Shown one piece after another: positions 141 through 14,050 of a DNA stretch of 35,430 nucleotides. The translations under genes and the position numbers were made by a program. Numbering within the stretch: position 1 is the first letter of the stretch; every line of letters starts with the position of its first letter. The notes below the pieces were generated by a model. It saw only the letters and a program-made list of their open reading frames with translations. It searched no databases and was not told where the DNA came from. Source of the stretch: Marinobacter sp. (GTDB lineage Bacteria; Pseudomonadota; Gammaproteobacteria; Pseudomonadales; Oleiphilaceae); assembly GCA_014762755.1 (NCBI GenBank), contig JABURI010000182.1:1-35430 (forward strand), given 5' to 3'.

Positions 141-159
141 GCCAGCGATCAGCGCTGGC
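141..159. terminator. Hairpin between convergent genes, weak terminator candidate
   Basis: GCCAGCG (141-147) and CGCTGGC (153-159) form a perfect 7-bp stem with a 5-base loop. It overlaps the stop codon of the minus-strand lipoprotein gene and lies just after the plus-strand barrel gene. No run of T follows on either strand, so intrinsic termination is uncertain. Confidence 0.3.
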
Positions 160-1015
160 CCAGGTCCTCGAAAAAGGCTTTTGTGTCGGCACGGATGTCG
201 TCTAGCCGCGCCTCCCATTGATCACGGTAATCTGCCCAGGTCTCGCTGCTCAGACGGGACAGGCTCTCTCCGGCTTCGGCAACGGCCCGGGTTGCCTCGG
301 CCAGATGTTCCGCCGTCGGCTCATCCAGCGCCTCGGCTTTCTGATCGAGATCCCGCGAGGCCTGCTCGAGGATTATCCGGTCTTCCTGGGGCGCCTGATC
401 GTTATCCTCCAGGGATTCGTTCAGGGACTCCTCCAGGTCTTTCATCGCCTCCTGGAGCGCCTCGGCGAAGTCTTCCATGGCGTTTTCAGCCCGGATCCGG
501 AGCTCGTCGGAGTAGGCCTCGAGGTCCCGGGACAGTTCGTTCATGCGGGCTTCCAGGTCGTCAGAAGAGCGGGCAAAGCTGGCGGAGAGTTTCTCACCCA
601 GACTGTTGATCTGGCCCATCAGGCCACTGAATGGGGACGGGTTGAGAATGGCGTCGCCGGTACGCTGGTAATCCACCAGCCACCCCTCGGCCGTCGACAC
701 GAGGAAAGTCTCCAATTCCAACCGTTCGCCATCAGAACCTTCCTCTGTCGGCAAGCGGGTAACGATGGTGGCTTCCCGCTCCTCGATCACCACCCGGCCG
801 AAGGAGGGAACCGCGTTGGTCCAGTCCCGCTTGTAGGCATCAAACTGTTTTTCATCCGTCAGGGTGGAGAACGCCACCACATCACCGGCGTCGTTTTCGG
901 CCATGGCCTGCCAGAACGCGGCCGCCACTTCCTGGGGAGTTTCGGGCTTGCTGCAACCGGCAAGCAACAAAAGACCGGCGACCAACGCCAGCCATGGGAG
1001 TCGGGAAAACATCAT
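149..1015 (-). CDS. Predicted lipoprotein with long coiled-coil region
   Basis: This 288-residue protein starts with a lipoprotein signal peptide: MMFSRLP, a hydrophobic core, then lipobox LLAG-C21, so it should be lipid-anchored in the envelope. Residues about 25-120 look like a small alpha/beta domain of the kind found in DUF4878-like lipoproteins. Residues about 130-280 are rich in Glu, Ala, Leu and Arg in heptad-like spacing and should form long amphipathic helices. The ATG at 1015 is chosen because AAGGAT lies about 8 bases upstream; an in-frame codon at 1054 would add 13 residues before the signal peptide. It sits 41 bases after the acetolactate synthase-like gene and may be the last gene of that group. 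Function is unknown. Confidence 0.8.
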   Translation of the reverse strand: MMFSRLPWLALVAGLLLLAGCSKPETPQEVAAAFWQAMAENDAGDVVAFSTLTDEKQFDAYKRDWTNAVPSFGRVVIEEREATIVTRLPTEEGSDGERLELETFLVSTAEGWLVDYQRTGDAILNPSPFSGLMGQINSLGEKLSASFARSSDDLEARMNELSRDLEAYSDELRIRAENAMEDFAEALQEAMKDLEESLNESLEDNDQAPQEDRIILEQASRDLDQKAEALDEPTAEHLAEATRAVAEAGESLSRLSSETWADYRDQWEARLDDIRADTKAFFEDLGQR

Positions 1016-1056
1016 TGCGTAAATCCTTAGGTCAAATCGATCGCGATGATACAACG

Positions 1057-2727
1057 CTAAAGCCTGCTGGTCAGTTCCGCCAGTTCCTCGTCAAACACCC
1101 GACGGTTTTCGCTGTAATCCACAGGCACATCGACCAGGTGCACCCCGCCGGCGGCCAACGCGCGCTCGAGGGTCGGACGAAGGTCCTCGGTGCGCGAAAC
1201 CCGGTGACCGGTGGCGCCATAGGATTCAGCGTATGTCACAAAGTCCGGATTACGGTAATCCAGACCGAAATCGGCCAGCCCTTCCTGAGCCTGTTTCCAC
1301 TTGATCATGCCATAGGCGCTGTCATTGATGATCAACACCACCAGATTCAGGTCCAGCCGGACCGCTGTCTCCAGTTCCTGGCTGTTCATCATGAAGCCAC
1401 CATCACCACAGATGGCCATCACTTTCAGATTCTTATACAGCATGGAGGCCATCATGGCACTGGGCAGGCCGGCCCCCATGGAAGCCAGGGCGTTGTCCAG
1501 CAGAACGGTGTTGTTGTCGTAGGCCGGATAGTTACGGGCAAACCAGAGTTTGTACATACCGTTATCCAGGGCAATGATGCCGTCTTCGGGCATCACCGCC
1601 CGCACGTCGTGAACAATGCGCTGGGGGATTACCGGAAAGCGGTCATTCTCAGCCTGGTCCCGCAGGTGCCGGTCAACGGCAGCCTTCACCTCCATGAACC
1701 GGGTGAAATCATGGTTGTGGCAGATACCACAGTGCTCCGCCATGTACTCGACACTGTTGGCAATGTCCCCGACCACCTCGTGCTGGGGGAAGTAAACCGG
1801 ATCCACATCGGCGCCGGAGAAGTTCACGTGGATGACCTTCTTGCCACCCGGCTGCATGAAGAACGGCGGTTTTTCGACCACATCGTGACCGACGTTGATC
1901 ACCAGGTCGGCGTGGTCGATAGCCCGGTGCACAAAGTCTCCGGCCGAGAGGGCGGCATTGCCCAGGTAGCGGGGATGACGCTCATCCACCACGCCCTTGC
2001 CCATCTGAGTGGTAAAGAACGGTATGTTGGTGGTGTTGACCAGGTGGATCAGCGCCTGGGAGACCCGCTTCCGGTTGGCCCCCGCGCCAATCATGATCAA
2101 AGGGTGCTTCGCCTCACGAAGCATGTCGCAGGCAATCTCCAGGCTCTTCTGGCTGGCGGAGGGTCGCCGGGCATCACTGGGTGCGAAGATGTGGGTGACC
2201 GCTTCAGGCGCCTCGGCAGCAATGTCCTCCGGCAATTCCAGGTGCACCGCACCCGGACGCTCCTCGGAGGCCAGACGAAACGCTTCCCGGACCTTGGCCG
2301 GGATGGTATTGGCGTTGGAGATCTGGCGGGTGTATTTGGTCAGTGGCCGCATCAGGTCGACCACATCCAGGATCTGGAACAGCCCCTGCTTGGAGGATTT
2401 GATCGGCTTCTGCCCGGAAATCATCATCATGGGCATGCCACCGAGCTGGGCATAGGCGGCCGCGGTCACCAGGTTGGTGGCGCCCGGCCCGAGGGTGGAG
2501 AGGCAGACCCCGACCCGGCCGGTCAGACGGCCATAGGTGGCAGCCATAAAGCCCGCGGCCTGTTCGTGCCGGTTCAGGATCAACTGGATATCACTGCTCC
2601 TGAGTGCTTCCAGCAGATCCAGGTTCTCCTCGCCCGGAACCGCGAAGATGTACTTGACGCCTTCGTTCTCCAGGGCCCGGATGAACAGTTCTGCCCCGTT
2701 ACCCGGCTTGGCTTGCCCGTTGGTCAT
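1057..2727 (-). CDS. Thiamine diphosphate-dependent enzyme, acetolactate synthase large-subunit family
   Basis: The 556-residue protein has the three-domain layout of the TPP decarboxylase/synthase superfamily. The N-terminal pyrimidine domain carries the activating Glu55 in RHEQAAGF. A central domain follows. The C-terminal domain has the TPP/Mg2+ motif GDGGFMMN (from residue 441) and a distal IINDSAYG near 468. Classical acetolactate synthase joins two pyruvates, or pyruvate and 2-oxobutyrate, into acetohydroxy acids. No small regulatory subunit and no ilvC lies beside it, so a role in branched-chain amino-acid synthesis is doubtful. It is third in a co-directional group after an ATP-grasp ligase and a papain-like protein (65-base gap). 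GGAG sits about 9 bases before the ATG. Family assignment is firm; the true substrates are not known. Confidence 0.85.
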   Translation of the reverse strand: MTNGQAKPGNGAELFIRALENEGVKYIFAVPGEENLDLLEALRSSDIQLILNRHEQAAGFMAATYGRLTGRVGVCLSTLGPGATNLVTAAAYAQLGGMPMMMISGQKPIKSSKQGLFQILDVVDLMRPLTKYTRQISNANTIPAKVREAFRLASEERPGAVHLELPEDIAAEAPEAVTHIFAPSDARRPSASQKSLEIACDMLREAKHPLIMIGAGANRKRVSQALIHLVNTTNIPFFTTQMGKGVVDERHPRYLGNAALSAGDFVHRAIDHADLVINVGHDVVEKPPFFMQPGGKKVIHVNFSGADVDPVYFPQHEVVGDIANSVEYMAEHCGICHNHDFTRFMEVKAAVDRHLRDQAENDRFPVIPQRIVHDVRAVMPEDGIIALDNGMYKLWFARNYPAYDNNTVLLDNALASMGAGLPSAMMASMLYKNLKVMAICGDGGFMMNSQELETAVRLDLNLVVLIINDSAYGMIKWKQAQEGLADFGLDYRNPDFVTYAESYGATGHRVSRTEDLRPTLERALAAGGVHLVDVPVDYSENRRVFDEELAELTSRL

Positions 2728-2792
2728 ACTCTGGCTCTCCGTCAGACCGATGTGACCCCGAGCATAGCATTGTTTTTGCCCGCTGCAGGTGC

Positions 2793-4817
2793 TTAGTCAG
2801 TCCGGGGAGGTTCTGCCTGGAGGCTGTCCGAGGGCACCCGGTCCACACCCCAACTCCGGTAGATGGCATCAAGCACCCGGCTCAGCTCTTCTCGGCTGAC
2901 ATCTGCCGGCTCTCCGCGCTCCAGAGGATCAAAGTGGAAGATATAGAGCCGTGATGTGAACTGCTCGAACGGCAGCGACGACTCACCAAAACGCTCGCCA
3001 TGGCCGGCGGTGCTCACCCGCACACCATCGCCCCAGTTCTGGCCGCTATCGTTGTTGGGATTGAAGAAATAGACCCGCATCCGCCCTTCCGGGTCCAGCG
3101 CCACCCGCAGAATGGTGATTGCGTGCCAGCCGATGAACCGGGCGGCACTGTCGGTGACCGCAATACCGGCGGGCTGGGGGTGGATCAGAGGCTGATTGCC
3201 ATTGTAGTAGGGATGGTAGCTGGCGTAGAAATGGCGGATAAAGCCTTCCGGATCATCCAGCTTGCCGGTCTCCACATCCACGTTGATGGCGAATCCACGA
3301 CCGGCGGACCAGCCATGGAACTCCGGGTTCACCCATCGGTGCGGGTCGCCCTCGCGGTCGGCACAGAGCCGCCCCATTTCGGCGTAGATGCGGTCCAGGT
3401 GCGGCACCACCACCAGGGACACCGGGTCGAGATCGAGGGTGACTTCCGAGGCGACACCGCCGGCACTGTGCGCCGAGGACACCGGTTTGCCCTCGAAGTG
3501 CATGATGATTTCATTGTCCCGGGCCGCCCAGGCCACCATCTGCAGCAGGTAGTCCGGATCATTGTAGGCCCACATAGACAGGGCCCGGGCCGACTGGCAG
3601 GTGGGGTTGTTGCCCTGGCCAACACCCATGGGCTGGCCCAACATGTTCAACACACCCTGGATCAGCCACGCCGCCGGCTGCGGCTCATAGCCATAGGCCA
3701 GCTGCAGGCGTTCCCGGGCCTCCGGGCACAGGGACAAACGGACCTGGCGCCAGAGCGCGGGAGCCACCGGCGGCTGGTACAGAATACCCCGTTCCAACAT
3801 CAGGGCCAGGCCATACAGACCCTGGGCAGTCCCGGGGAAAATGCCCTCCCGGATCAGGGTATGGACCAACTCCCGGTAACACAGCAGGCAGTCGCGGCCG
3901 GTACTGGAGAGCCCGAGGGCCTCGCTCAGAAGCGCGTCCTGGTCTTCCAGAATAAAACGCACGAAAGTGGCGTGATACGGCGACACCAGACCGGTGTCAT
4001 GCATCGATCGGGCGAAGCCGGTGGCTTCATTCTGGAGGGCCTGGGCATCCATGGAGTCGAGGCGTTGCTCATAGACCACGGTACCGGGGTCCTCGCTGCA
4101 GGCCCGGGTCGGACCGTAAAGGGCGGAGATCAGGCGATCCGCGCCCCGACCGGCGCTGCCGAGGTCGGCGTTCGGGTCGGCCCGGCACAGGGCGATCTGA
4201 GTGATCATCCGCCGAACATCGGTTACCTGTATCGGCCGCTGCTGCAGGATGCGCCAGATTTCCTCGATCAGGCTGTCGATCACATGTTCGTACCCAATAT
4301 GTTCCGCCACGTACTGCACAACGGACTGGCTGATCAGCGCCAGTTTGCCCTGCTCTCGTTCCGCTTCACCGGTCATGCCGAACAGCAGGCCGAGATTGAT
4401 CGCAAGGACCTGGGTCAGGTAGTGATGGGCCTGTTCCGCCGAGACCGACGGATGCAGGTAGAGGCCTCTGGCGACGGCCAGCAGGCGCAATTCGCTGATG
4501 GCTTCCACCACCACGGTATCGGCAATCGGGCTCTGCAGGGAGTGGGTGGTCAGCGATGGCAGCAGGATACCCGGCTCGGCCCAGTCGGTGCCGGCGAAGA
4601 CCCCGGCCTGCTCCAGCCGCTGAGCCCGTTCTTCGATTACCCGGCAGCCATCCGGCTGCAGTAGCACCCGGCGGGCAATATCAAATACCCGCGGGAGCTT
4701 GCCGGCCCTGGCAAAGGGCCGGCTTTCTTCCAGAGCCTGGATCGACTCATCAAGTCTTTGCACCAGCTTGTCCATGTTGACCGCCGGTGCTGCACTGCCC
4801 GGTTGGTGATCGCTCAA
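2793..4817 (-). CDS. Uncharacterised 674-residue protein with papain-like catalytic pattern
   Basis: I do not recognise this as a named family. The N-terminal ~380 residues look mainly helical. The C-terminal part shows a papain-like order of residues. A Gln401 six residues before Cys407 (QGNNPTC) copies the oxyanion Gln/nucleophile spacing of papain. His565 lies in GWHAITIL, and Asn586 in a YFFNPNND...NWGDGVRV stretch resembles the family's Asn-...-WG-...-G-x-x-R/V ending. If real, this is a thiol hydrolase or acyltransferase. No signal peptide is seen, so it is probably cytoplasmic. The start is TTG at 4817, chosen for AGGAG 8 bases upstream; an ATG at 4775 has no good Shine-Dalgarno sequence. 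It lies 56 bases after the ATP-grasp gene and 65 before the TPP enzyme, suggesting co-transcription. Confidence 0.8.
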   Translation of the reverse strand: MSDHQPGSAAPAVNMDKLVQRLDESIQALEESRPFARAGKLPRVFDIARRVLLQPDGCRVIEERAQRLEQAGVFAGTDWAEPGILLPSLTTHSLQSPIADTVVVEAISELRLLAVARGLYLHPSVSAEQAHHYLTQVLAINLGLLFGMTGEAEREQGKLALISQSVVQYVAEHIGYEHVIDSLIEEIWRILQQRPIQVTDVRRMITQIALCRADPNADLGSAGRGADRLISALYGPTRACSEDPGTVVYEQRLDSMDAQALQNEATGFARSMHDTGLVSPYHATFVRFILEDQDALLSEALGLSSTGRDCLLCYRELVHTLIREGIFPGTAQGLYGLALMLERGILYQPPVAPALWRQVRLSLCPEARERLQLAYGYEPQPAAWLIQGVLNMLGQPMGVGQGNNPTCQSARALSMWAYNDPDYLLQMVAWAARDNEIIMHFEGKPVSSAHSAGGVASEVTLDLDPVSLVVVPHLDRIYAEMGRLCADREGDPHRWVNPEFHGWSAGRGFAINVDVETGKLDDPEGFIRHFYASYHPYYNGNQPLIHPQPAGIAVTDSAARFIGWHAITILRVALDPEGRMRVYFFNPNNDSGQNWGDGVRVSTAGHGERFGESSLPFEQFTSRLYIFHFDPLERGEPADVSREELSRVLDAIYRSWGVDRVPSDSLQAEPPRTD

Positions 4818-4873
4818 ACGACGTTCTCCTGAGGGCCTGCGCCAAACCCGTTTGTTATTGATTGCTCTCCCGA

Positions 4874-6106
4874 TTATACATAGAAATCGAGCTCTTCCTG
4901 ATGTTTCAGCAGATCCCGCATCCGATAGGGATCATCACCGAAGAAATAGACCAGCCCCCAATGCGTCCCGAACGCGGTCCGTTTGGTGACGGTTTCCTCC
5001 ACCGGCGGCGTGAGCTCGTGGCTTTCGAAGTAGTCGTCGTTCTCGGTCTCCTCGGGCATTTCCAGGCGGCTGACCACCCGGCGGCGCGGATAGACCCCGA
5101 AGCATCCGGCGTAGCCCTTGGCATCGACCACCTCCTTCGGGAAGAAAGCGGTAATTTCCTCTTCCGTGGTTTTCGGATCGAAGGCGAGAATCATGCCCTG
5201 GTAGGCATTGAAGCCATAGGCCCGCTCGAGCAACTCGAAGACCTTGAAGCCGGGCGGGCGATAGGCCACCTCACCGAAGTACATGGTGCCGTCACTGGTG
5301 ACAAAGTACTCGGGATGGACAAAGCCGAAGTCGATATCAAAGGTCTTGATCAGCTTTTCGATTTCCCTGGTGATTTGCTCCCGGTATTTCTCCAGGTCCG
5401 GCGTGGCCGGCACGAACACCGAGTAGCCGAGAGTGACATACTCGGAAATGTTCAGGAATCGGATTTTGCCGTTATGAATCCAGGCCTCGACGGCAAATTC
5501 CCAGCCATCCAGGTGAGACTCCATCAGCACCGGGAACTCTTCATCCGGGATGGTATCCACCTCGTCCGGGGTGCGGATCACCCGGTGACCGAGACAACCG
5601 GCCTTGTCGAAGGCCTTGAGGTGAATAGGGTCGTTCGGGTCGCCGTCCAGTTTCAGCAGGGTCTGATTCACCCGTTTCAGGAAACGGATGACATCGTCAC
5701 GGTCGTGGGCCTCCTCGAAAATACCGACGCGGATGCCGCCCAGCTGGGCACGGCGTTTCATCAATGCCTTGTCCCGAAGCAGCATGGCCTGACCAAACAG
5801 CCTCGGTTTATCCATCAGTACCGAGTTGATGGCGCCCGCCCATTCGACGGTTTCCTCAAACAATGGAATGGCAACATCGACACCCATTTCTTTCAGGGTC
5901 TGGGCGATTTCAAAGGAGCGATCGTTCAGCCTCTCGAAATTCCAGGGCACGTAGGGAATCTTGTGCTCCTCGCAATAGGCCTCTGCCCAGTCCGGAGCCA
6001 CGACGACATATCGGCGGTCAAATTTGTCCGCTGCCTCCACGGCGTTCAGACTCCATCCGAGCAGCGCGACATACCCCTTGTCGGGATCATACTGGTGCTC
6101 ACTCAT
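4874..6106 (-). CDS. ATP-grasp domain ligase of unknown substrate
   Basis: The 410-residue protein has the ATP-grasp layout. An N-terminal Rossmann-like pre-grasp domain (about 10-100) is followed by RDKALMKRRAQLGGI (111-125), a candidate ATP-contacting lysine in IHLKAF (161-166), and a hinge/lid region with ESHLDGWEFAVEAW (196-209). The metal-binding strand GEVAYRPPG (278-286) has Glu279 and Arg283. Such enzymes activate a carboxylate as acyl phosphate and couple it to an amine or thiol. The C-terminal ~90 residues are an extra region of unclear fold. It is first in the minus-strand group with the papain-like protein and the TPP enzyme, starts after AAGGAG about 7 bases upstream, and is insulated from mqo by a strong terminator. 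The substrate cannot be read from the sequence. Confidence 0.85.
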   Translation of the reverse strand: MSEHQYDPDKGYVALLGWSLNAVEAADKFDRRYVVVAPDWAEAYCEEHKIPYVPWNFERLNDRSFEIAQTLKEMGVDVAIPLFEETVEWAGAINSVLMDKPRLFGQAMLLRDKALMKRRAQLGGIRVGIFEEAHDRDDVIRFLKRVNQTLLKLDGDPNDPIHLKAFDKAGCLGHRVIRTPDEVDTIPDEEFPVLMESHLDGWEFAVEAWIHNGKIRFLNISEYVTLGYSVFVPATPDLEKYREQITREIEKLIKTFDIDFGFVHPEYFVTSDGTMYFGEVAYRPPGFKVFELLERAYGFNAYQGMILAFDPKTTEEEITAFFPKEVVDAKGYAGCFGVYPRRRVVSRLEMPEETENDDYFESHELTPPVEETVTKRTAFGTHWGLVYFFGDDPYRMRDLLKHQEELDFYV

Positions 6107-6188: not shown

Positions 6189-6237
6189 AAAAAAAAGCGT
6201 GGCGGACAGCAGGGAGCCCCACTATCCGCCACGCTTT
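6189..6237 (-). terminator. Rho-independent terminator of mqo
   Basis: On the minus strand a 13-bp perfect stem (6225-6237 with 6194-6206) is closed by an 18-base loop and followed by a run of T at 6196-6189. It lies 28 bases after the mqo stop codon and separates mqo from the ATP-grasp group. Confidence 0.93.
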
Positions 6238-6264: not shown

Positions 6265-7746
6265 TCAGGCGAGCTTGAGGGTCGAGAGCGTCCGCTCACG
6301 CACCTTGTTCAGCAGTGCCTCGTCGTCCACCAGGGACTGACCGTAGGACGGCACCAGATCCCGGATGCGTTCCTGCCACTGGGCACTTTTCAGTTTTTCC
6401 GGGAAACAGCGCTCGAGCACATCGAGCATGGCGTTGGCCGCTGTGGAGGCGCCCGGGGAGGCACCCAACAGGGCCGCCAGAGTGCCGTCTTTGGCCGCAA
6501 CGATCTCGGTACCGAATTCCAGCTTGCCGCCGCCGTCATCGGTCTGCTTGATGATCTGCACCCGCTGGCCGGCCATCTGCAATTTCCAGTCCTCCTCCCG
6601 GGCATCCGGGAAGAAGTTACGCAGCGAGGCAACACGGTCGCTGTGGGACTGGAACACCTCGCCGATCAGGTACCGGGTCAGATCCATATTGCTCTTGCTC
6701 ACCGACAGCATCGGCTTGAGGTTGGTGGTGCGTACCGAGCCGATCAGGTCGAAGATGGAGCCCTGCTTCAGGAAACGGGTGGTGAATCCGGCAAACGGTC
6801 CGAACAGCAGCGCCGGTTCGCCATTGATGATGCGGGTGTCCAGGTGCGGCACCGACATCGGCGGCGCGCCGATCGGAGCCTTGCCGTAAACCTTGGAGTT
6901 GTGCTGGCCAACGATATCCGGTTTGCCACACACCAGCCACTGGCCGCTGACCGGGAAACCGCCGTAACCCCGGGCTTCTTCGATGCCCGATTTCTGCAAC
7001 AGCGGCAGGGCTCCGCCGCCTGCACCGAGGAACACGAAGCCGGCTTCCAGCTTGGTCAGTTCGCCGGTTTTCTGGTTCTTCACGCGCACTTTCCAACGGC
7101 CGTTGTCGCGCTGGTCGATATAATGCACGGGGCAACTGAGCATCAGTTCGAAATTGTCCTGAGTTTCCAGCCATTCCACCATGCTGCGGGTCAGGGAACC
7201 GAAATCGACATCCGAGCCGTGATTGATCCGGGTGGCGGCCACACGCTGCATGGGGTCACGGTGGTTGACTACCAGAGGCATCCACTGTTCGAGAACGTCC
7301 GGAGACTCGGTGTATTCCATTTCCCGGAACAGGTGATGGGCACTGAGCTTTTCATGGCGGCGCTTGAGGAACGCCACGTCCTTCTCACCCCAGACAAAGC
7401 TCTGGTGCGGGGTACGGTTGATGAAGGATTTCGGGTCTGGCAGAACACCCTGTTCGACCAGGTAGGACCAGAACTGCAGGGAAACCTCGAACTGGGCGTT
7501 GATCTTCAGCGCCCGATCGATGGTCACGTCACCATCGTCGGTTTCCGGGGTGTAGTTGAGTTCACAGTAGCCGGCGTGACCGGTACCCGCGTTGTTCCAT
7601 CCGTCCGTGCTTTCATGGGCAACGTGGTCAAGACGCTCCACCATGACGATGTCCAGCGACGGATCGAGCTGTTTGAGCATCATGCCGAGGGTGGCGCTCA
7701 TGACGCCACCGCCGACCAGCACTACGTCTGCCTGTCTAACGGCCAT
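6265..7746 (-). CDS. mqo: Malate:quinone oxidoreductase
   Basis: This 493-residue FAD enzyme oxidises malate to oxaloacetate and passes electrons to the quinone pool, acting as a peripheral membrane protein in the TCA cycle. The N-terminal dinucleotide-binding motif VVLVGGGVMSATLG (9-22) is followed by ERLDHVAHESTDGWNNAGTGHAGYC-type sequence typical of Mqo. The length matches the family (about 490-500). The ATG at 7746 has CAGGGT about 8 bases upstream. It is transcribed alone, with its own terminator downstream and a 322-base divergent region shared with nhaD upstream. fumC, the preceding TCA step, lies elsewhere in the window. Confidence 0.96.
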   Translation of the reverse strand: MAVRQADVVLVGGGVMSATLGMMLKQLDPSLDIVMVERLDHVAHESTDGWNNAGTGHAGYCELNYTPETDDGDVTIDRALKINAQFEVSLQFWSYLVEQGVLPDPKSFINRTPHQSFVWGEKDVAFLKRRHEKLSAHHLFREMEYTESPDVLEQWMPLVVNHRDPMQRVAATRINHGSDVDFGSLTRSMVEWLETQDNFELMLSCPVHYIDQRDNGRWKVRVKNQKTGELTKLEAGFVFLGAGGGALPLLQKSGIEEARGYGGFPVSGQWLVCGKPDIVGQHNSKVYGKAPIGAPPMSVPHLDTRIINGEPALLFGPFAGFTTRFLKQGSIFDLIGSVRTTNLKPMLSVSKSNMDLTRYLIGEVFQSHSDRVASLRNFFPDAREEDWKLQMAGQRVQIIKQTDDGGGKLEFGTEIVAAKDGTLAALLGASPGASTAANAMLDVLERCFPEKLKSAQWQERIRDLVPSYGQSLVDDEALLNKVRERTLSTLKLA

Positions 7747-8068: not shown

Positions 8069-9319
8069 ATGTCCGCTCTTGATACTGTTCTGATTATTCT
8101 TGCTGTTCTGGCTCTTCTGGGAGTCATCTTCGAAGAGATCACCCACGTCAATAAAGCCAAGGTTACGCTGTTTTTCGGCACGCTGGCCTGGGTGTTGCTG
8201 TTCCTGTTCAGCGACTCACCCGAGGAGACCCAGGCCGTCACCACCGGACTCACGGAGAGCATTGCCGAAATCGCCGGGCTGTGGCTGTTTCTGGTCGCGG
8301 CGATGACCTTCGTCGCCTACCTGAATAAAAAGGGAATGATCGAGAACGTGATCTATCTGATCATGCCGAGGCAGGTAAGCGAACGGCGACTGCTGTTCCT
8401 GACCGGTCTGTTCTGTTTCATTTTCTCGTCTTTAGCAGACAATATAACTGCCACTTTAGTCTCATGCTCCCTGATTCTGTCCCTGAATCTGGAGCTGAAA
8501 AAGCGCCTCCAGTTCGTCACTCTGGTGGTTTTTGCGGTGAACTCCGGAGGCGTTTCGCTGATCACCGGCGACGTCACCACACTGATGATCTTCCTCGCGG
8601 ACAAGGTGGAAATACTGACTTTGCTGACCCTGGCCATCCCCGCCTCCATCACGGTTTTCATTCTCGCCGTATTCCTCTCCAGGGGACTGACCGGCACTGT
8701 GACGCTGCGATCAAACACCACACCGGTGCGCCGGGTGGACGCGGTGATCAGCGCCCTGTTTTTGTTAACAATCCTGGGCACCATCGCGGGCAACGCCCTG
8801 TTCAGTATTCCGCCGGTTCTCACGTTTCTGTTCGGCCTCTCGATCATGTTCCTGGTCTCCCGATTCATGAGCAACGACTCGGACCTGGACCCGATCCTGG
8901 AATACATCCGGGTCATCGAATTCGAGACCCTGCTCTTCTTTCTGGGCATCCTGCTGCTGGTGGGCATGCTCAAGGAAATCCACGCTCTGGATTCCCTCGT
9001 GGCGATCTACGATCTGCTCCCCCCGCTGTACGCCAATTACCTGATGGGAATCTTCTCGGCGGTTATCGATAATGTGCCGCTGACGGCGGCGCTGCTGAAA
9101 GCGGGCATCGCCATGACGCCGGGAGAATGGATGGGGTTGACATACGCTGTCGGCGTTGGCGGTTCGCTGCTGATTATCGGTTCCGCCGCGGGCATTGTGG
9201 CCATGAGCAAGATCGAAGGGCTGACCTTCGGTGCCTACATGCGGTATCTTGCCCACCTCCTCGCAGCTTACACCCTCGGCTATGCCGGGGTATTCATGCT
9301 CGGACGATTCATAAACTGA
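8069..9319 (+). CDS. nhaD: Na+/H+ antiporter, NhaD family
   Basis: The 416-residue protein is almost entirely hydrophobic, with roughly eleven to thirteen predicted membrane segments, and matches the NhaD type of the ion transporter superfamily. Supporting stretches include GVIFEEITHVNKAK near residues 18-31, SSLADNITATLVSC near 120-133, NSGGVSLITGDVTT near 157-170 and FSAVIDNVPLTAALLKAG near 330-347. It expels Na+ (or Li+) in exchange for protons across the inner membrane and is common in halophiles and marine bacteria. The ATG at 8069 is preceded by the weak Shine-Dalgarno GGGGTG. The next gene starts 13 bases after its stop, so the two are probably one operon for cation balance. Confidence 0.92.
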   Translation: MSALDTVLIILAVLALLGVIFEEITHVNKAKVTLFFGTLAWVLLFLFSDSPEETQAVTTGLTESIAEIAGLWLFLVAAMTFVAYLNKKGMIENVIYLIMPRQVSERRLLFLTGLFCFIFSSLADNITATLVSCSLILSLNLELKKRLQFVTLVVFAVNSGGVSLITGDVTTLMIFLADKVEILTLLTLAIPASITVFILAVFLSRGLTGTVTLRSNTTPVRRVDAVISALFLLTILGTIAGNALFSIPPVLTFLFGLSIMFLVSRFMSNDSDLDPILEYIRVIEFETLLFFLGILLLVGMLKEIHALDSLVAIYDLLPPLYANYLMGIFSAVIDNVPLTAALLKAGIAMTPGEWMGLTYAVGVGGSLLIIGSAAGIVAMSKIEGLTFGAYMRYLAHLLAAYTLGYAGVFMLGRFIN

Positions 9320-9332
9320 GGCTTTACTCGAT

Positions 9333-10322
9333 ATGTTGATGGCTTTTGGCTCGATCATTGCCGGGCTGGTACTTCTGGTCTGGAGCGCCGACAAATTCGT
9401 CGAAGGTGCCGCGGCAACCGCCAAGCACCTGGGCATGCCCACCCTGCTGATCGGCATGGTGATCATCGGCTTTGGCACCTCCGCGCCCGAACTGGCGGTA
9501 TCGGCCATGGCGGCGGCCGATGGCAATCCCGGCCTGGCACTGGGTAACGGCTACGGCTCCAACATCACCAATATTGCCCTGATTGTCGGCCTGACCGCGG
9601 TCATCGCACCCATCGCGGTGCATTCCCAGGTGATCCGCAAGGAACTGCCCCTGCTGGTGATCCTGACCCTGATCGCCGGGTCCCAGCTGATCGACGGCAA
9701 TCTGACCCGGCTGGACGGCGCCGTTCTGCTGCTGGTATTCGCGGGTGTGATGGGCTGGTCCATTTTTCAGGGCATCCGCGGCAAGGATGACCCGCTGGGC
9801 GGGGAAACCGATGCCGAGATCATCGCCCACCCCATACCGCTCAAATCCGCCATCCTGTGGCTGGTGGTCGGCCTGGTACTTCTGGTGGTCAGCTCCCGGA
9901 TCCTGGTGTGGGGCGCGGTGACCATTGCCCAGAGTCTGGGGGTCAGTGATCTGGTGATCGGCCTGACCATCGTGGCCATCGGCACCTCGCTGCCGGAACT
10001 GGCCTCGGCCTTGGCGGCGGTGAAAAAGAACGAACATGACCTGATCCTCGGCAACATTCTGGGATCGGGAATTTTCAATACCCTGGCCGTGGTTGGGCTT
10101 GCGGCCGCGATTGAGCCACTGAAAGTCGATCCGGAAGTACTGTACCGGGACTGGACGCTGATGCTCGCCCTGACCGTTGGCTTGCTGGTCATGGGCTTCG
10201 GCCTGACGGGCTGGCGCAAGCGGATTTCCCGGTTCGATGGCGGTGCGCTGCTGCTGGTTTACGTCGCCTATACCGGCTACCTGCTCACGACCGTGGTAAC
10301 CGCAGGAACCTCCGCCACCTGA
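9333..10322 (+). CDS. yrbG: Ca2+/Na+ antiporter of the CaCA family (YrbG-like)
   Basis: The 329-residue membrane protein has the internal duplication of the cation/Ca2+ exchanger family. The first alpha-repeat has GFGTSAPEL (46-54) and GNGYGSNITNI (71-81). The second has IGTSLPEL (216-223) and GNILGSGIFN (240-249). The Glu in each TSxPEL motif is the usual ion ligand. About ten membrane segments are expected, with a charged cytoplasmic loop at 147-168. It likely exchanges Ca2+ for Na+ at the inner membrane, so pairing with NhaD makes a Na+-based cation module. No terminator is visible in the 17-base gap to the convergent acyltransferase gene. Confidence 0.92.
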   Translation: MLMAFGSIIAGLVLLVWSADKFVEGAAATAKHLGMPTLLIGMVIIGFGTSAPELAVSAMAAADGNPGLALGNGYGSNITNIALIVGLTAVIAPIAVHSQVIRKELPLLVILTLIAGSQLIDGNLTRLDGAVLLLVFAGVMGWSIFQGIRGKDDPLGGETDAEIIAHPIPLKSAILWLVVGLVLLVVSSRILVWGAVTIAQSLGVSDLVIGLTIVAIGTSLPELASALAAVKKNEHDLILGNILGSGIFNTLAVVGLAAAIEPLKVDPEVLYRDWTLMLALTVGLLVMGFGLTGWRKRISRFDGGALLLVYVAYTGYLLTTVVTAGTSAT

Positions 10323-10339
10323 CCTCAAGCGGGGCCGGC

Positions 10340-11104
10340 TTACTCGGCCTCGCCATCACCCAGCAGGTCTTCCAACCTGCCACGCACCTCACTCATGATC
10401 CCGGGCAGGTCCTGTTTGGATCTGCCCGCCACATCCAGGGGCTCGCCAACCCGCACATCCACCGGCTGGCCAAGGTTGATCTGCCAGGTTCGGGCCGGCA
10501 GTACCTGATGAATCCCCCGGATCGCCACCGGCACGATCACCGCTTCGGTATCCAGGGCCAGATGGAAACAGCCTTTCTTGAACGGCAGCAGTTTACCATC
10601 CGGTGAACGGGTACCCTCCGGCGCGGCCCAGAGTACGATACCGCTTTCCATCATGCCCCGGGCGTGCTCGAGATCCCGGACGGCCCGGTTCCGATTGGAA
10701 CGGTCCACCGACGGAAACTCGGCGGCCCGCATGGCTTGGCCAAGCAGAGGGATACTGAACAGTTCCTTTTTCGCCAGCATGCGGATCGAGCCGGGCAAAG
10801 AGACGAAACTGACCGGGATATCGTAGTGGCTGGCGTGGGTACACATGATGATGTACCGCCGGCCATCTCCGAAATCCGGCACGGCTCCCCGAACAGTCAG
10901 ATTGGCCCGCACCAGCCGCAGTAACGCGGCCGACCATTGCCGGCAATACTGGTCCACGATCCGGCGATCGAGCTTGCCGAACAGGGCCCGGAGCAGGATC
11001 AGAACCGAATACAGGGCCGTCAGCCCCACTGATCCGAGCACCACACCGGCACGGCGCAGGAGCGTGGCGGATTCGGTCAGTGGATTCAGTTTCAGTCGGA
11101 TCAT
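10340..11104 (-). CDS. plsC: 1-acyl-sn-glycerol-3-phosphate acyltransferase family protein
   Basis: This 254-residue protein of the PlsC/LPLAT family transfers an acyl chain to lysophosphatidate or a related acceptor at the inner membrane. Motif I is H90-ASHY-D95, the catalytic HX4D. Motif II lies around FPSVDRSNRN (130-139), motif III is EGTRS (163-167), and the VPVAIRG stretch is motif IV. A hydrophobic segment at about 20-40 should anchor the protein. The length fits PlsC (about 240-260). AAGGA lies about 10 bases before the ATG. Marinobacter-like genomes can carry several PlsC paralogues, so this may not be the main phospholipid enzyme; the symbol is by family. Confidence 0.85.
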   Translation of the reverse strand: MIRLKLNPLTESATLLRRAGVVLGSVGLTALYSVLILLRALFGKLDRRIVDQYCRQWSAALLRLVRANLTVRGAVPDFGDGRRYIIMCTHASHYDIPVSFVSLPGSIRMLAKKELFSIPLLGQAMRAAEFPSVDRSNRNRAVRDLEHARGMMESGIVLWAAPEGTRSPDGKLLPFKKGCFHLALDTEAVIVPVAIRGIHQVLPARTWQINLGQPVDVRVGEPLDVAGRSKQDLPGIMSEVRGRLEDLLGDGEAE

Positions 11105-11208
11105 GGTTGCTCTGTCCTTCTCCGGGGCGTCGTATTTTCAGCAGGCTGTGCCAGTAGCGGCGCATTATAGCCGGTCCCGTTGCCGCTGGAGAACAGCGGA
11201 AATTTGCA

Positions 11209-11237
11209 TTGATCAATTATCAAACTCAGCCTATAAA
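11209..11237 (+). promoter_or_regulatory. Sigma-70 promoter of sorAB
   Basis: A -35 TTGATC (11209-11214) and a -10 TATAAA (11232-11237) are separated by 17 bases, upstream of sorA. The -35 sits inside an inverted repeat TTGAT-N5-ATCAA (11209-11223), which could bind a regulator. The leader to the ATG would be about 68 bases. Confidence 0.6.
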
Positions 11238-11311
11238 TAATAAGGATATAACTGCGGCACACCGGCCGCGGAAGGCAATGCCTTCGTACAAGACCAAAAA
11301 GGAGAGGCACC

Positions 11312-12538
11312 ATGAAACACCCGACCGAGATGAAACGGGGGCCCAACGACCCCGGTCTCGAGAACCCCGGACGCAGAACCATGCTGCTGGGCAGCGCTGG
11401 AGCCATGGCGGCGGTGAGCCTGTTGGGCTTCACTCCACTGGCTCGGGCTGAAGAACCCAAAACACTCCCTGATTACGTGGCCTGGAAGGAACGCAACGCA
11501 CTCATTCTTCATAGTGCCAACACCATGGAAACCCAGCGCAGCGCCATCGGCCAGGGGGTCATCACCTCCAGCGACCGCCTATTTGTCCGCAACAACCTGC
11601 CAGCTCCGTCCGAAGACATCGTCGCTGACCGGGATGCCTGGGAAGTGAACATCCAGGGCGTGAAAAATCCGCGCGCCCTGACCATCGGCGAACTCAAGAC
11701 CATGGGAGTCACCACCGTGGCATCCGTGCTCCAGTGTTCCGGTAATGGCCGGGCCTTCTTCCCCCACGGCGCCAGCGGCACCCAGTGGTCGGTCGGCGCC
11801 GCAGGTTGCGTCATGTGGACCGGTGTTCCGCTGAAAACCGTTGTCGAGGCCCTGGGCGGCCCTGCAGACGGCATGAAATACATCACCAGTACCGGCGGCG
11901 AATCCCTGCCCGACGGTATCGATCCCAAGACCATCATGGTGGAACGTTCCGTGCCGATGCACGCCCTGGACTCAGCCATGCTGGCCTGGGAGATGAATGA
12001 CGAGCCCCTGCCGCTGACCCATGGTGGCCCGCTGCGCATGGTGGTTCCGGGCTTCTATGGCGTAAACAACGTCAAATACGTCAAGAACGTGGCCTTTACC
12101 GAAAGCCAGACCGACGCCAAGATCCAGGCCTCCGGCTATCGGATTCGTGACGTGGGCAAGAAAGGAGCCCCTGACCAGCCGTCCATGTGGGAGATGAACG
12201 TCAAATCCTGGGTCACCGCTCCCCTGGAAACCGGTCGCGCCGGCCGCAACATGATCTATGGTGTGGCCTTCGGCGGCACCAAATCACTGGAGAAAGTGGA
12301 AGTTTCCACCGATGGCGGCCAGAGCTGGAAACAGGCCCAGTTCCTCGGACCGGACCTGGGCCCCTATGCCTGGCGCCCGTTTGTGATGGCCGCCGATCTT
12401 TCCGCCGGCGAACATCGTATTGTCAGTAAGGCAACCGATGTCGATGGCAACAGCCAGCCGGAAGGCCGCACTGAAAACGAGCGTGGCTACGGGCACAATG
12501 GCTGGAAGGATCACGGAGTCACAGTCACTGTAAGCTGA
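11312..12538 (+). CDS. sorA: Periplasmic molybdopterin sulfite dehydrogenase subunit (SorA-like)
   Basis: This 408-residue enzyme oxidises sulfite to sulfate using a molybdopterin cofactor. A twin-arginine signal (R21R22 in GRRTMLLGSAG, then a hydrophobic stretch to TPLARA near 45) predicts folded export by Tat. The molybdenum-ligating cysteine is Cys142 in LQCSGNGR. The C-terminal ~120 residues form the Mo-cofactor oxidoreductase dimerisation domain, with GGTKSLEKVEVSTDGGQSW typical of the fold in its middle. AAGGAG lies just before the ATG. The next gene encodes a small cytochrome c, the SorAB arrangement in which electrons pass to cytochrome c. Sulfite is the likeliest substrate from family and context. 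Confidence 0.88.
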   Translation: MKHPTEMKRGPNDPGLENPGRRTMLLGSAGAMAAVSLLGFTPLARAEEPKTLPDYVAWKERNALILHSANTMETQRSAIGQGVITSSDRLFVRNNLPAPSEDIVADRDAWEVNIQGVKNPRALTIGELKTMGVTTVASVLQCSGNGRAFFPHGASGTQWSVGAAGCVMWTGVPLKTVVEALGGPADGMKYITSTGGESLPDGIDPKTIMVERSVPMHALDSAMLAWEMNDEPLPLTHGGPLRMVVPGFYGVNNVKYVKNVAFTESQTDAKIQASGYRIRDVGKKGAPDQPSMWEMNVKSWVTAPLETGRAGRNMIYGVAFGGTKSLEKVEVSTDGGQSWKQAQFLGPDLGPYAWRPFVMAADLSAGEHRIVSKATDVDGNSQPEGRTENERGYGHNGWKDHGVTVTVS

Positions 12539-12604
12539 CCAACCGGGGCGGCTGACCAGGGAGAAGCAGTCGCCCCACCCTTATCATTATCGGATTCATA
12601 CCAG

Positions 12605-12925
12605 ATGAACAAAAATGCTGTATTGGCCATCGCCGGCCTGATGACCTTTTCTCTCCACGTATCAGCCGATGACCTTGCCACCCAGGGCAAGCAAGTCTTC
12701 ACCCAGGAAGCCCAACCTTCCTGCACCATCTGTCATACCCTCGCCGATGCCGGATCTGCCGGTGCCGTCGGCCCGAACCTGGATGACCTCAAACCCACCG
12801 AGGAGCAGGTCAGAATGGCCGTGACCCAAGGCGTTGGTGTCATGCCGGCGTTCGAAGAGAGCCTGTCGGAAGAGCAGATCAAGGCCGTCGCGCATTACGT
12901 CTCGAGCGTAACCGGCGGGAAGTAA
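12605..12925 (+). CDS. sorB: Monohaem cytochrome c, electron acceptor of sulfite dehydrogenase (SorB-like)
   Basis: The 106-residue protein has a Sec signal peptide (residues 1 to about 21, ending VSA) and one haem-binding motif CTICH (Cys40, Cys43, His44). Met80 in GVGVMPAF is the likely sixth iron ligand. It is a class I cytochrome c of the size of SorB. It lies 66 bases after sorA and before a clear terminator, so the pair forms a two-gene transcript. It should carry electrons from sulfite to the respiratory chain in the periplasm. Confidence 0.88.
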   Translation: MNKNAVLAIAGLMTFSLHVSADDLATQGKQVFTQEAQPSCTICHTLADAGSAGAVGPNLDDLKPTEEQVRMAVTQGVGVMPAFEESLSEEQIKAVAHYVSSVTGGK

Positions 12926-12930
12926 TAGAA

Positions 12931-12953
12931 AACGGGGCCTGCGCCCCGTTTTT
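12931..12953. terminator. Bidirectional terminator between sorB and msrB
   Basis: AACGGGGC (12931-12938) pairs with GCCCCGTT (12943-12950) around the loop CTGC, followed by TTTTT on the plus strand. On the minus strand the same stem is followed by TTTTC, so it can serve both convergent transcripts. Confidence 0.9.
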
Positions 12954-12962
12954 CAATTCCGA

Positions 12963-13388
12963 TCAACCTTGCTCCCTGAAGACCATGGCGATGGAGTTCA
13001 GGCAGTAGCGCTGTCCGGTCGGCGGCGGCCCATCGGGAAAGACATGCCCCAGGTGACTGTCACAGCGCGGGCATCGGATCTCGGTGCGAGCCATCCCGAG
13101 GCTGCTGTCTTCCAGGTAGCGGATATGGTCAGGGTCGAAGGGCTGGAAGAAACTCGGCCAGCCGGTCCCGGAGTCGAATTTCGAGTCCGAGCTGAACAGG
13201 GGCAGGTCGCACAGCCGGCAGTGATAGACACCGGCCTTCTTGTTATCGAGCAGGGTGCCACAGAACGGGTGCTCGGTGCCGTGATCGAGCAATACCCGCC
13301 GCTCTTCCGGCGTCAGGTCCGCCGCTTTCTCGTCCACCTGCGCCTGCGTCAATGGTGTCAGGTCATAACCTGCTGCAGATACAGTCAT
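12963..13388 (-). CDS. msrB: Peptide-methionine (R)-S-oxide reductase
   Basis: This 141-residue MsrB reduces the R-epimer of methionine sulfoxide in proteins. Two CxxC pairs, CRLC and CPRC, form the structural zinc site. The core [10 protein letters not shown] and the catalytic Cys129 in RYCLNS are intact. No export signal is present, so it is cytoplasmic. It follows msrA by 11 bases in one operon. Its neighbour across the terminator is the sulfite dehydrogenase; both relate to oxidative and sulfur chemistry, though no regulatory link is seen. Confidence 0.95.
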
Positions 13389-13399
13389 CAGTTGTCTCC

Positions 13400-14050
13400 T
13401 CAGGCCTGGCCCGGTTCGTTGTCGGTGTATTCCGGCTTCAGTCGGTCGGCGTAGCTGTCCACCAGCTTTTCCATCTTGGGTGCAGCGACGGCCATGATGT
13501 AGGGCTGGTAGGGATTCCGGGCGGCAAAGTTCTGATGGTACTCCTCGGCCGGGTAGAAGGCCTCCAGCGGCTCCAGGCTGGTCACGATTGGATCGGGATA
13601 GACCCCGGCCGCATCCAGCTGATGGATGTAGGCCTCGGCCACCGCTTTCTGATCAGCTGTTTCGTAGAAAATGGCCGAGCGGTATTGGGTGCCCCGGTCA
13701 TTGCCCTGCCGGTTGAGCTGGGTCGGATCGTGGGCCACGGAAAAGAACACCTTCAGGAGCTCGCCAAAACTGACTTTTGCCGGATCATACCGGACTTCCA
13801 CCACCTCGGCGTGGCCGGTCGTGCCGGTGCACACCGCTTCGTAATTGGCGGTTTCCGCACGGCCCCCGGCATAACCGGAAGTCACCTGGCTGACACCGTC
13901 CATCGCCAGAAACACTGCTTCGACACACCAGAAACAGCCGCCGGCCAGGACCAGGCGCGCCTCATCACCGTCAGCGGGCAGATCCCGCTCCGGATCCGGA
14001 AAACGGCTTCTGGGTACCGTCAAACCCGGAATATTGCACGACTCTGTCAT
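13400..14050 (-). CDS. msrA: Peptide-methionine (S)-S-oxide reductase
   Basis: The 216-residue MsrA reduces the S-epimer of methionine sulfoxide. The catalytic motif is GGCFWC (Cys39, with Cys42 next to it), followed by VEAVF and later [13 protein letters not shown] and the [11 protein letters not shown] region typical of the family. The ATG at 14050 is chosen because AGAGG lies about 6 bases upstream; the frame stays open to 14200, but the extra 50 residues do not look like MsrA. It is the first gene of the msrA-msrB pair, which together repair both sulfoxide epimers. Confidence 0.95.

Follow-up and report, generated by a model that had tools for sequence, protein, structure and literature searches.

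A two-gene unit of an ATP-grasp ligase and a papain-like protein, a candidate amide make-and-break system

Introduction

Three adjacent genes of Marinobacter, predicted to encode an ATP-grasp ligase, a papain-like protein and a TPP enzyme, raise the question of whether they form one functional unit and, if so, what that unit might do. They lie in a stretch of 35,430 nucleotides that was analyzed as a whole (hereafter, the window). A sequence-only reading had described the three genes as co-directional, closely spaced and cut off by a terminator beside mqo. It had assigned them to one group, in which the ligase makes an amide or thioester, the papain-like protein cleaves or transfers an acyl group, and the TPP enzyme contributes C–C bond chemistry. 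We compared this locus with those of other genomes, and combined the comparison with family profiles and a structural model.

Organization of the locus

The described layout is confirmed by the ORF coordinates and a hairpin scan of the window. All three genes are on the minus strand, with 56 bases between the ligase gene and the gene for the papain-like protein (674 aa) and 65 bases between the latter and the TPP gene. The scan found no terminator-like sites between the three genes. The features of the locus are as follows.

149..1054, minus strand: predicted lipoprotein gene behind the TPP gene; lipobox LLAGC, recognized by eye downstream of a likely internal start
1057..2727, minus strand: TPP enzyme, acetolactate-synthase-like (NF006187/PRK08322); neighbor in Marinobacter only, outside the core unit
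2793..4817, minus strand: 674-aa papain-like protein; core of the two-gene unit
4874..6106, minus strand: ATP-grasp ligase, 410 aa; core of the two-gene unit
6194..6237, minus strand: strong terminator-like hairpin of 20 pairs, separating mqo from the pair
6265..7746, minus strand: mqo, the upstream neighbor of the pair in Marinobacter loci

Among the loci compared, the predicted lipoprotein gene adjoins the pair in Marinobacter only. Two further genes of the window lie upstream of mqo: an NhaD-type sodium/proton antiporter gene (8069-9319) and a gene at 9333-10322 whose homologue in locus L086 matches a sodium/calcium exchanger family.

The ligase and the papain-like protein occur in the same genomes

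We searched three genome samples, each with one genome per species drawn from a larger group: 58 relatives, 369 genomes of the class and 398 of the phylum. The samples overlap, and counted by handle the carriers of both genes are 52 different genomes. Among the 58 relatives, the 674-aa protein was found in 34 and the ligase in the same 34, with one 28% ligase match in G039 set aside. The class sample yielded the 674-aa protein in 13 genomes and the ligase in the same 13; this count sets aside one 674-aa match in G329 and weak ligase matches in 16 further genomes (at most 36% identity, over part of the length). The G329 match (E 6.7e-4) sits among ORFs read as glycolate-oxidase-like and was taken for chance. 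In the phylum sample, where the ligase search was limited to E ≤ 1e-30, both genes were again found in the same genomes (11 of 398). One pair carrier, G436, lies outside the class. With the weak matches set aside, no genome in the three samples contains either gene without the other. The grouping proposed by the sequence-only reading therefore stands for its first two members, and the core of the locus is a two-gene unit, ATP-grasp plus papain-like.

Gene order was read from the best 80 of at least 576 confirmed stretches. In 73 of these 80 loci the ligase ORF is directly upstream of the 674-aa gene, on the same strand. The seven exceptions are five Marinobacter loci, one Halomonas locus and one contig edge that shows part of the ligase. 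Locus L091 carries ligase and TPP genes that are both split by apparent frameshifts (about 8700-13722); the title of this draft suggests Ion Torrent reads, and the frameshifts are probably sequencing errors.

Both genes also occur in additional copies. Five genomes of the window's genus (G004, G015, G022, G026 and G030) have no full ligase gene beside the 674-aa gene and carry another ligase, 74–77% identical, elsewhere. Fragments of a ligase gene are found beside the papain-like gene in three of them (G004:C1:81418-81587, G026:C1:1260529-1260707 and G015:C7:8312-8386). In six stretches a second ligase copy (76–77%) stands next to a paralogue of the 674-aa gene (51–53%), in divergent orientation. 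G006 holds five full-length papain-like copies against two ligases, and many additional papain-like copies sit away from any ligase gene. Conversely, 5 of 19 extra ligase stretches show no papain-like gene over the length covered; two of the five are cut off by the end of their contig. Putrescine-transport-like genes (a binding protein, an ATPase and two permeases, recognized by eye) lie about 1–5 kb before a papain-like paralogue in L041, L042, L046, L048 and L055. We did not adopt a link to polyamines from these genes, since an opposite-strand gene intervenes in at least three of the five stretches and the stretches share synteny.

The carriers among the matches listed comprise Marinobacter, Halomonadaceae, Ectothiorhodospiraceae, Salinisphaera, Natronospira, Wenzhouxiangella and Desulfurispira natronophila, which are generally marine, halophilic or haloalkaliphilic. 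Further carriers among these matches are metagenome bins of Myxococcota, Actinomycetota, Dehalococcoidia and Piscirickettsiaceae. Among 72,556 plasmid records, the pair is present in only one, a Halomonas replicon of 1.8 Mb. A phage origin was rejected, as the search gave no match in phages and none that was confirmed in viral contigs; assignment to a defense system was rejected for lack of a PADLOC match.

The ligase of Desulfurispira natronophila (phylum Chrysiogenota) is 85% identical to the Marinobacter protein of the window. In the tree it nests with three gammaproteobacterial loci, all of them metagenome bins (support 0.984), and this position among Gammaproteobacteria suggests horizontal transfer. 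The same nesting, together with the patchy spread of the pair (13 of 369 genomes in the class sample), would also fit two genes that travel together without joint chemistry, for instance stress genes of independent function that move as one block. We consider this explanation unlikely, because the two genes still occur together where they are no longer adjacent (G344, with 55 kb between them) or no longer share a strand (G227 and G335), and likewise where the neighboring ligase has been lost but a further copy is present.

The TPP gene is a neighbor in Marinobacter only

The TPP protein passes the NCBIfam model NF006187 (PRK08322 acetolactate synthase) with 876.5 bits against a cut-off of 509. 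It misses TIGR00118 (IlvB), at 365 bits against a cut-off of 538.35, a model that two other proteins of the window's genome, at L001 and L002, do pass. Judged by these profiles, the protein is acetolactate-synthase-like and distinct from ordinary IlvB; the ordinary enzyme, which would have spoken against an unusual gene group, was rejected as an identification.

The distribution of the TPP gene sets it apart from the pair. It is present in 22 of the 80 loci (best 80 of at least 576 stretches), in one of them 2.4 kb off; all 22 are Marinobacter, a genus that accounts for 36 of the 80. Of the 34 relatives with the pair, the TPP homologue is adjacent in 20, lies elsewhere or 2.4 kb away in 6, and is missing at E ≤ 1e-150 in 8; in two of the six (G004 and G026) the homologue is only 65% identical. 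G047 and G051 contain a TPP homologue (63–64%) without the pair. The TPP gene is a Marinobacter-only neighbor and not part of the core unit, so the third family of the original group falls away.

A single pathway in which all three enzymes lead to a small molecule can draw on the shared strand, the short gaps free of terminator-like sites, and the adjacency of the three genes in those 20 relatives. A gene that is confined to one genus among the 80 loci, is missing from 8 of 34 pair-bearing relatives and occurs without the pair in two genomes makes such a pathway improbable. Its reliance on C–C bond chemistry is left unsupported, and we did not retain it.

The predicted ATP-grasp ligase

The ligase scores 24.0 bits against PF13535 (ATP-grasp), for which the cut-off is 27, and three relatives that were scanned are likewise below the cut-off; a precomputed table assigns PF13535 to relatives such as P0243-P0250. 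The nearest solved sequence is that of the L-amino acid ligase BL00235 (PDB: 3vot; E 9e-4). An E-x-A/G-x-R motif is common to the ligase and both L-amino acid ligases of the PDB alignment (3vot and 4wd3).

We assembled 194 ligase sequences, consisting of that of the window, those of 73 loci and 120 database proteins. The predicted metal ligands E266 and E279 are present in all 194. In ATP-grasp enzymes, the usual third metal ligand is an Asn two residues further on. At this position the ligase has Ala281, much as both aligned L-amino acid ligases carry Gly or Ala there. From these features the enzyme is predicted to form an amide from a carboxylate and an amine.

Across the carrier genomes searched, ligase identity is 74–98%. 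The lowest identity to the window's protein among the 194 sequences is 76%, whereas that of the 674-aa protein goes down to 39%, and the ligase is the better conserved partner in 72 of 73 paired loci. Given its 85% identity across phyla, and since it was not found without its partner in the three samples, the ligase probably serves a function on which its carriers depend.

Architecture and predicted active site of the papain-like protein

Searches of Pfam, NCBIfam and PADLOC gave no match for the 674-aa protein. A structural model built from 47 sequences (pLDDT 89; an earlier model from 17 sequences was mediocre, at pLDDT 73.6) comprises an N-terminal helical solenoid (about residues 15–367) followed by a papain-like domain (368–633). 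Foldseek alone returned no solved match for the protein at E ≤ 0.001, and no CHAP or transglutaminase chain is among the 50 matches listed by VIA-align for the model.

An alignment of 391 papain-like proteins, near-duplicates included, points to the following active-site residues, whose codon positions were computed from the ORF.

3597..3599, minus strand: Cys407, predicted nucleophile; 391 of 391 aligned sequences
3615..3617, minus strand: Gln401, predicted oxyanion hole; 391 of 391
3123..3125, minus strand: His565, predicted catalytic residue; 391 of 391
3060..3062, minus strand: Asn586, predicted catalytic residue; 386 of 391, with Asp in four and a gap in one

The protein shows the Gln-Cys-His-Asn order of papain-like cysteine enzymes, and its model shows the papain fold. 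Gln401 lies six residues ahead of Cys407, which is the papain spacing. The conserved tetrad and the predicted papain-like domain bear out the identity that had been given to the second gene. Since papain folds also carry out acyl transfer, the predicted cutting may instead be a transfer. The solenoid seen in the model suggests a macromolecular partner.

Comparison with known systems

A pair of activities of this kind is known from glutathionylspermidine synthetase/amidase, a bifunctional enzyme with a CHAP domain, in which an ATP-grasp synthetase and a papain-fold amidase make and break one amide. That enzyme is one fused protein, whereas the pair described here consists of separate genes and has no CHAP match in Pfam. 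The L-amino acid ligases BL00235 and 4wd3, the nearest solved sequences to the ligase (best E 9e-4, with the shared E-x-A/G-x-R motif), have no papain-like partner that we know of.

An ATP-grasp enzyme together with a peptidase is the usual toolkit of graspetide maturation. By analogy, the ligase could crosslink a ribosomally made precursor from which the papain-like protein releases the product. We regard this as very unlikely: among the recurrent neighbors (ORFs of at least 90 codons) no small gene or exporter was noticed, and the 56-base gap leaves no room for a gene between the two.

Two known analogs also combine an ATP-grasp protein with a peptidase. In RimK/RimB and the rlo operon of Pseudomonas, glutamates are added by RimK, which RimB binds and regulates, and polyglutamate is cleaved by RloA (PMC12239564). 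These systems resemble the present pair in that an ATP-grasp protein is encoded with a peptidase (PMC12239564). Their peptidases are described as retropepsin-like aspartic enzymes, whereas the partner found here is a predicted papain-like cysteine enzyme with a solenoid; we excluded membership of these families because of the aspartic peptidase. The Anbu operon contains genes for an ATP-grasp protein, alpha-E, a transglutaminase-like protein and Anbu, with protein tagging among its proposed roles (PMC6376114). Here the likeness lies in an ATP-grasp protein with a transglutaminase-like partner, in place of a papain-like one. The difference is that the Anbu operon has four genes, including that of a proteasome-like subunit, and our unit has two. 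No Anbu or alpha-E gene was noticed beside the ligase among the recurrent neighbors read by eye. In our best reading, the pair would work like RimK/RimB or the Anbu operon but does not fall under the definition of the former and, judging from the neighbors read by eye, probably not under that of the latter.

A papain-like family, 'New_papain', has been described from methionyl-tRNA-synthetase-like clusters with predicted peptide synthesis, and ATP-grasp ligases are likewise encoded in several of these clusters (PMC2922099). The clusters are set apart from the pair by their many more genes, and the main text names neither Marinobacter nor Halomonas (PMC2922099).

Deacylase genes beside the pair in other lineages

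In a few lineages a gene of the HDAC family lies beside the pair. It was found in 6 of 39 stretches from 35 genomes (G237, G316, G403, G596, G799 and G892, from five families). This rate is biased: an initial set of 16 genomes had revealed the gene in 4, and the remaining 19 were taken from orders selected around G403, G316, G237 and G227. Within the best 80 of at least 576 stretches, only L107 has it. The neighbor is absent from most loci, with none in L005 and L036-L075.

Its placement varies. The order is ligase, papain-like, HDAC in G237 and L107; papain-like, ligase, HDAC in G403; and papain-like, HDAC, ligase in G316. The HDAC gene faces the papain-like gene in G596, and in G892 the papain-like gene is followed by an HDAC gene that faces the ligase gene. 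G799 has egtD between the ligase and the HDAC-like gene, all on one strand (L265:1813-2784, minus strand); this egtD encodes L-histidine N-alpha-methyltransferase (TIGR03438, 392.8 bits). The HDAC-like protein that was checked passes PF00850, and the zinc-site motifs are kept, by eye, in six complete copies. Four Halomonas loci with partial HDAC-like matches (36–40%), 1.8–3.7 kb from the ligase and on the opposite strand, were not counted.

In one family, 11 of the 16 genomes with a ligase gene have a sirtuin gene within 1.6 kb upstream of it on the same strand, and in two more the distance is 7–8 kb. We set this link aside, as it concerns one family only and could be plain synteny. Enzymes of the HDAC and sirtuin families are deacylases that act, in the best-known cases, on lysine amides, which, as far as gene neighborhood goes, makes amide bonds the theme of the deacylase neighbors.

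Proposed function

We propose that the pair forms an amide make-and-break system of an ATP-grasp ligase and a papain-like cutter, and we give this reading about an even chance of being correct. From the earlier scheme it keeps the amide chemistry of these two genes, which our results support, and drops the three-enzyme arrangement. Judging from its fold and its resemblance to L-amino acid ligases, the ATP-grasp enzyme would activate a carboxylate as an acyl phosphate and join it to an amine. The model and residue conservation suggest that the papain-like protein would hydrolyze or transfer that amide through Cys407, His565 and Asn586, together with Gln401, while its solenoid would select the substrate. 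In some lineages, as the gene neighborhoods hint, an HDAC- or sirtuin-family deacylase might act on bonds of this kind as well.

The substrate may be a protein, to which the solenoid and the several papain-like copies point, or a small molecule, in line with the L-amino acid ligase resemblance and with carriers from saline habitats. In the latter case, the product of the pair would be a small molecule, such as a compatible solute resembling a dipeptide, and the papain-like protein would be an acyl transferase or would form the amide instead of removing it. The ligase does resemble L-amino acid (dipeptide) ligases, and the carriers listed are generally marine, halophilic or haloalkaliphilic. 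This link to salt, however, is drawn from the names of the carriers, a number of the carriers are metagenome bins, and the solenoid suggests a macromolecular partner. Across families, moreover, no biosynthetic or transporter gene was seen to recur directly beside the pair. In L036 (11426-12535, minus strand; genome G041) the ligase gene is preceded on its own strand, at a distance of 289 bases, by a gene for the ATPase of a sugar-type ABC transporter (NF008653, 471 bits); none of 130 other stretches contained a copy of it at 45% identity or more. Overall, we consider synthesis of a small molecule possible yet doubtful; if true, it would represent a new route of osmoadaptation.

Within the make-and-break reading, a more specific and clearly more speculative version, of low probability, is tagging at lysine amides. 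The ligase would write an amino-acid or peptide tag on proteins or polyamines, and the solenoid-bearing papain-like proteins would erase it; as part of the same tentative picture, the extra papain-like copies would serve different targets, and HDAC or sirtuin deacylases would be alternative erasers elsewhere. If protein tagging proves true, the pair would constitute a new modification system with a writer and an eraser. In the open-licence literature we recognized no paper on this gene pair, and an earlier mention is possible.

A further gene recurs downstream of the pair in Halomonadaceae. It encodes a large mechanosensitive channel and was seen in 33 of the 80 loci (best 80 of at least 576), for example at L114:12835-16296 on the minus strand; its position beside the pair likely reflects synteny.
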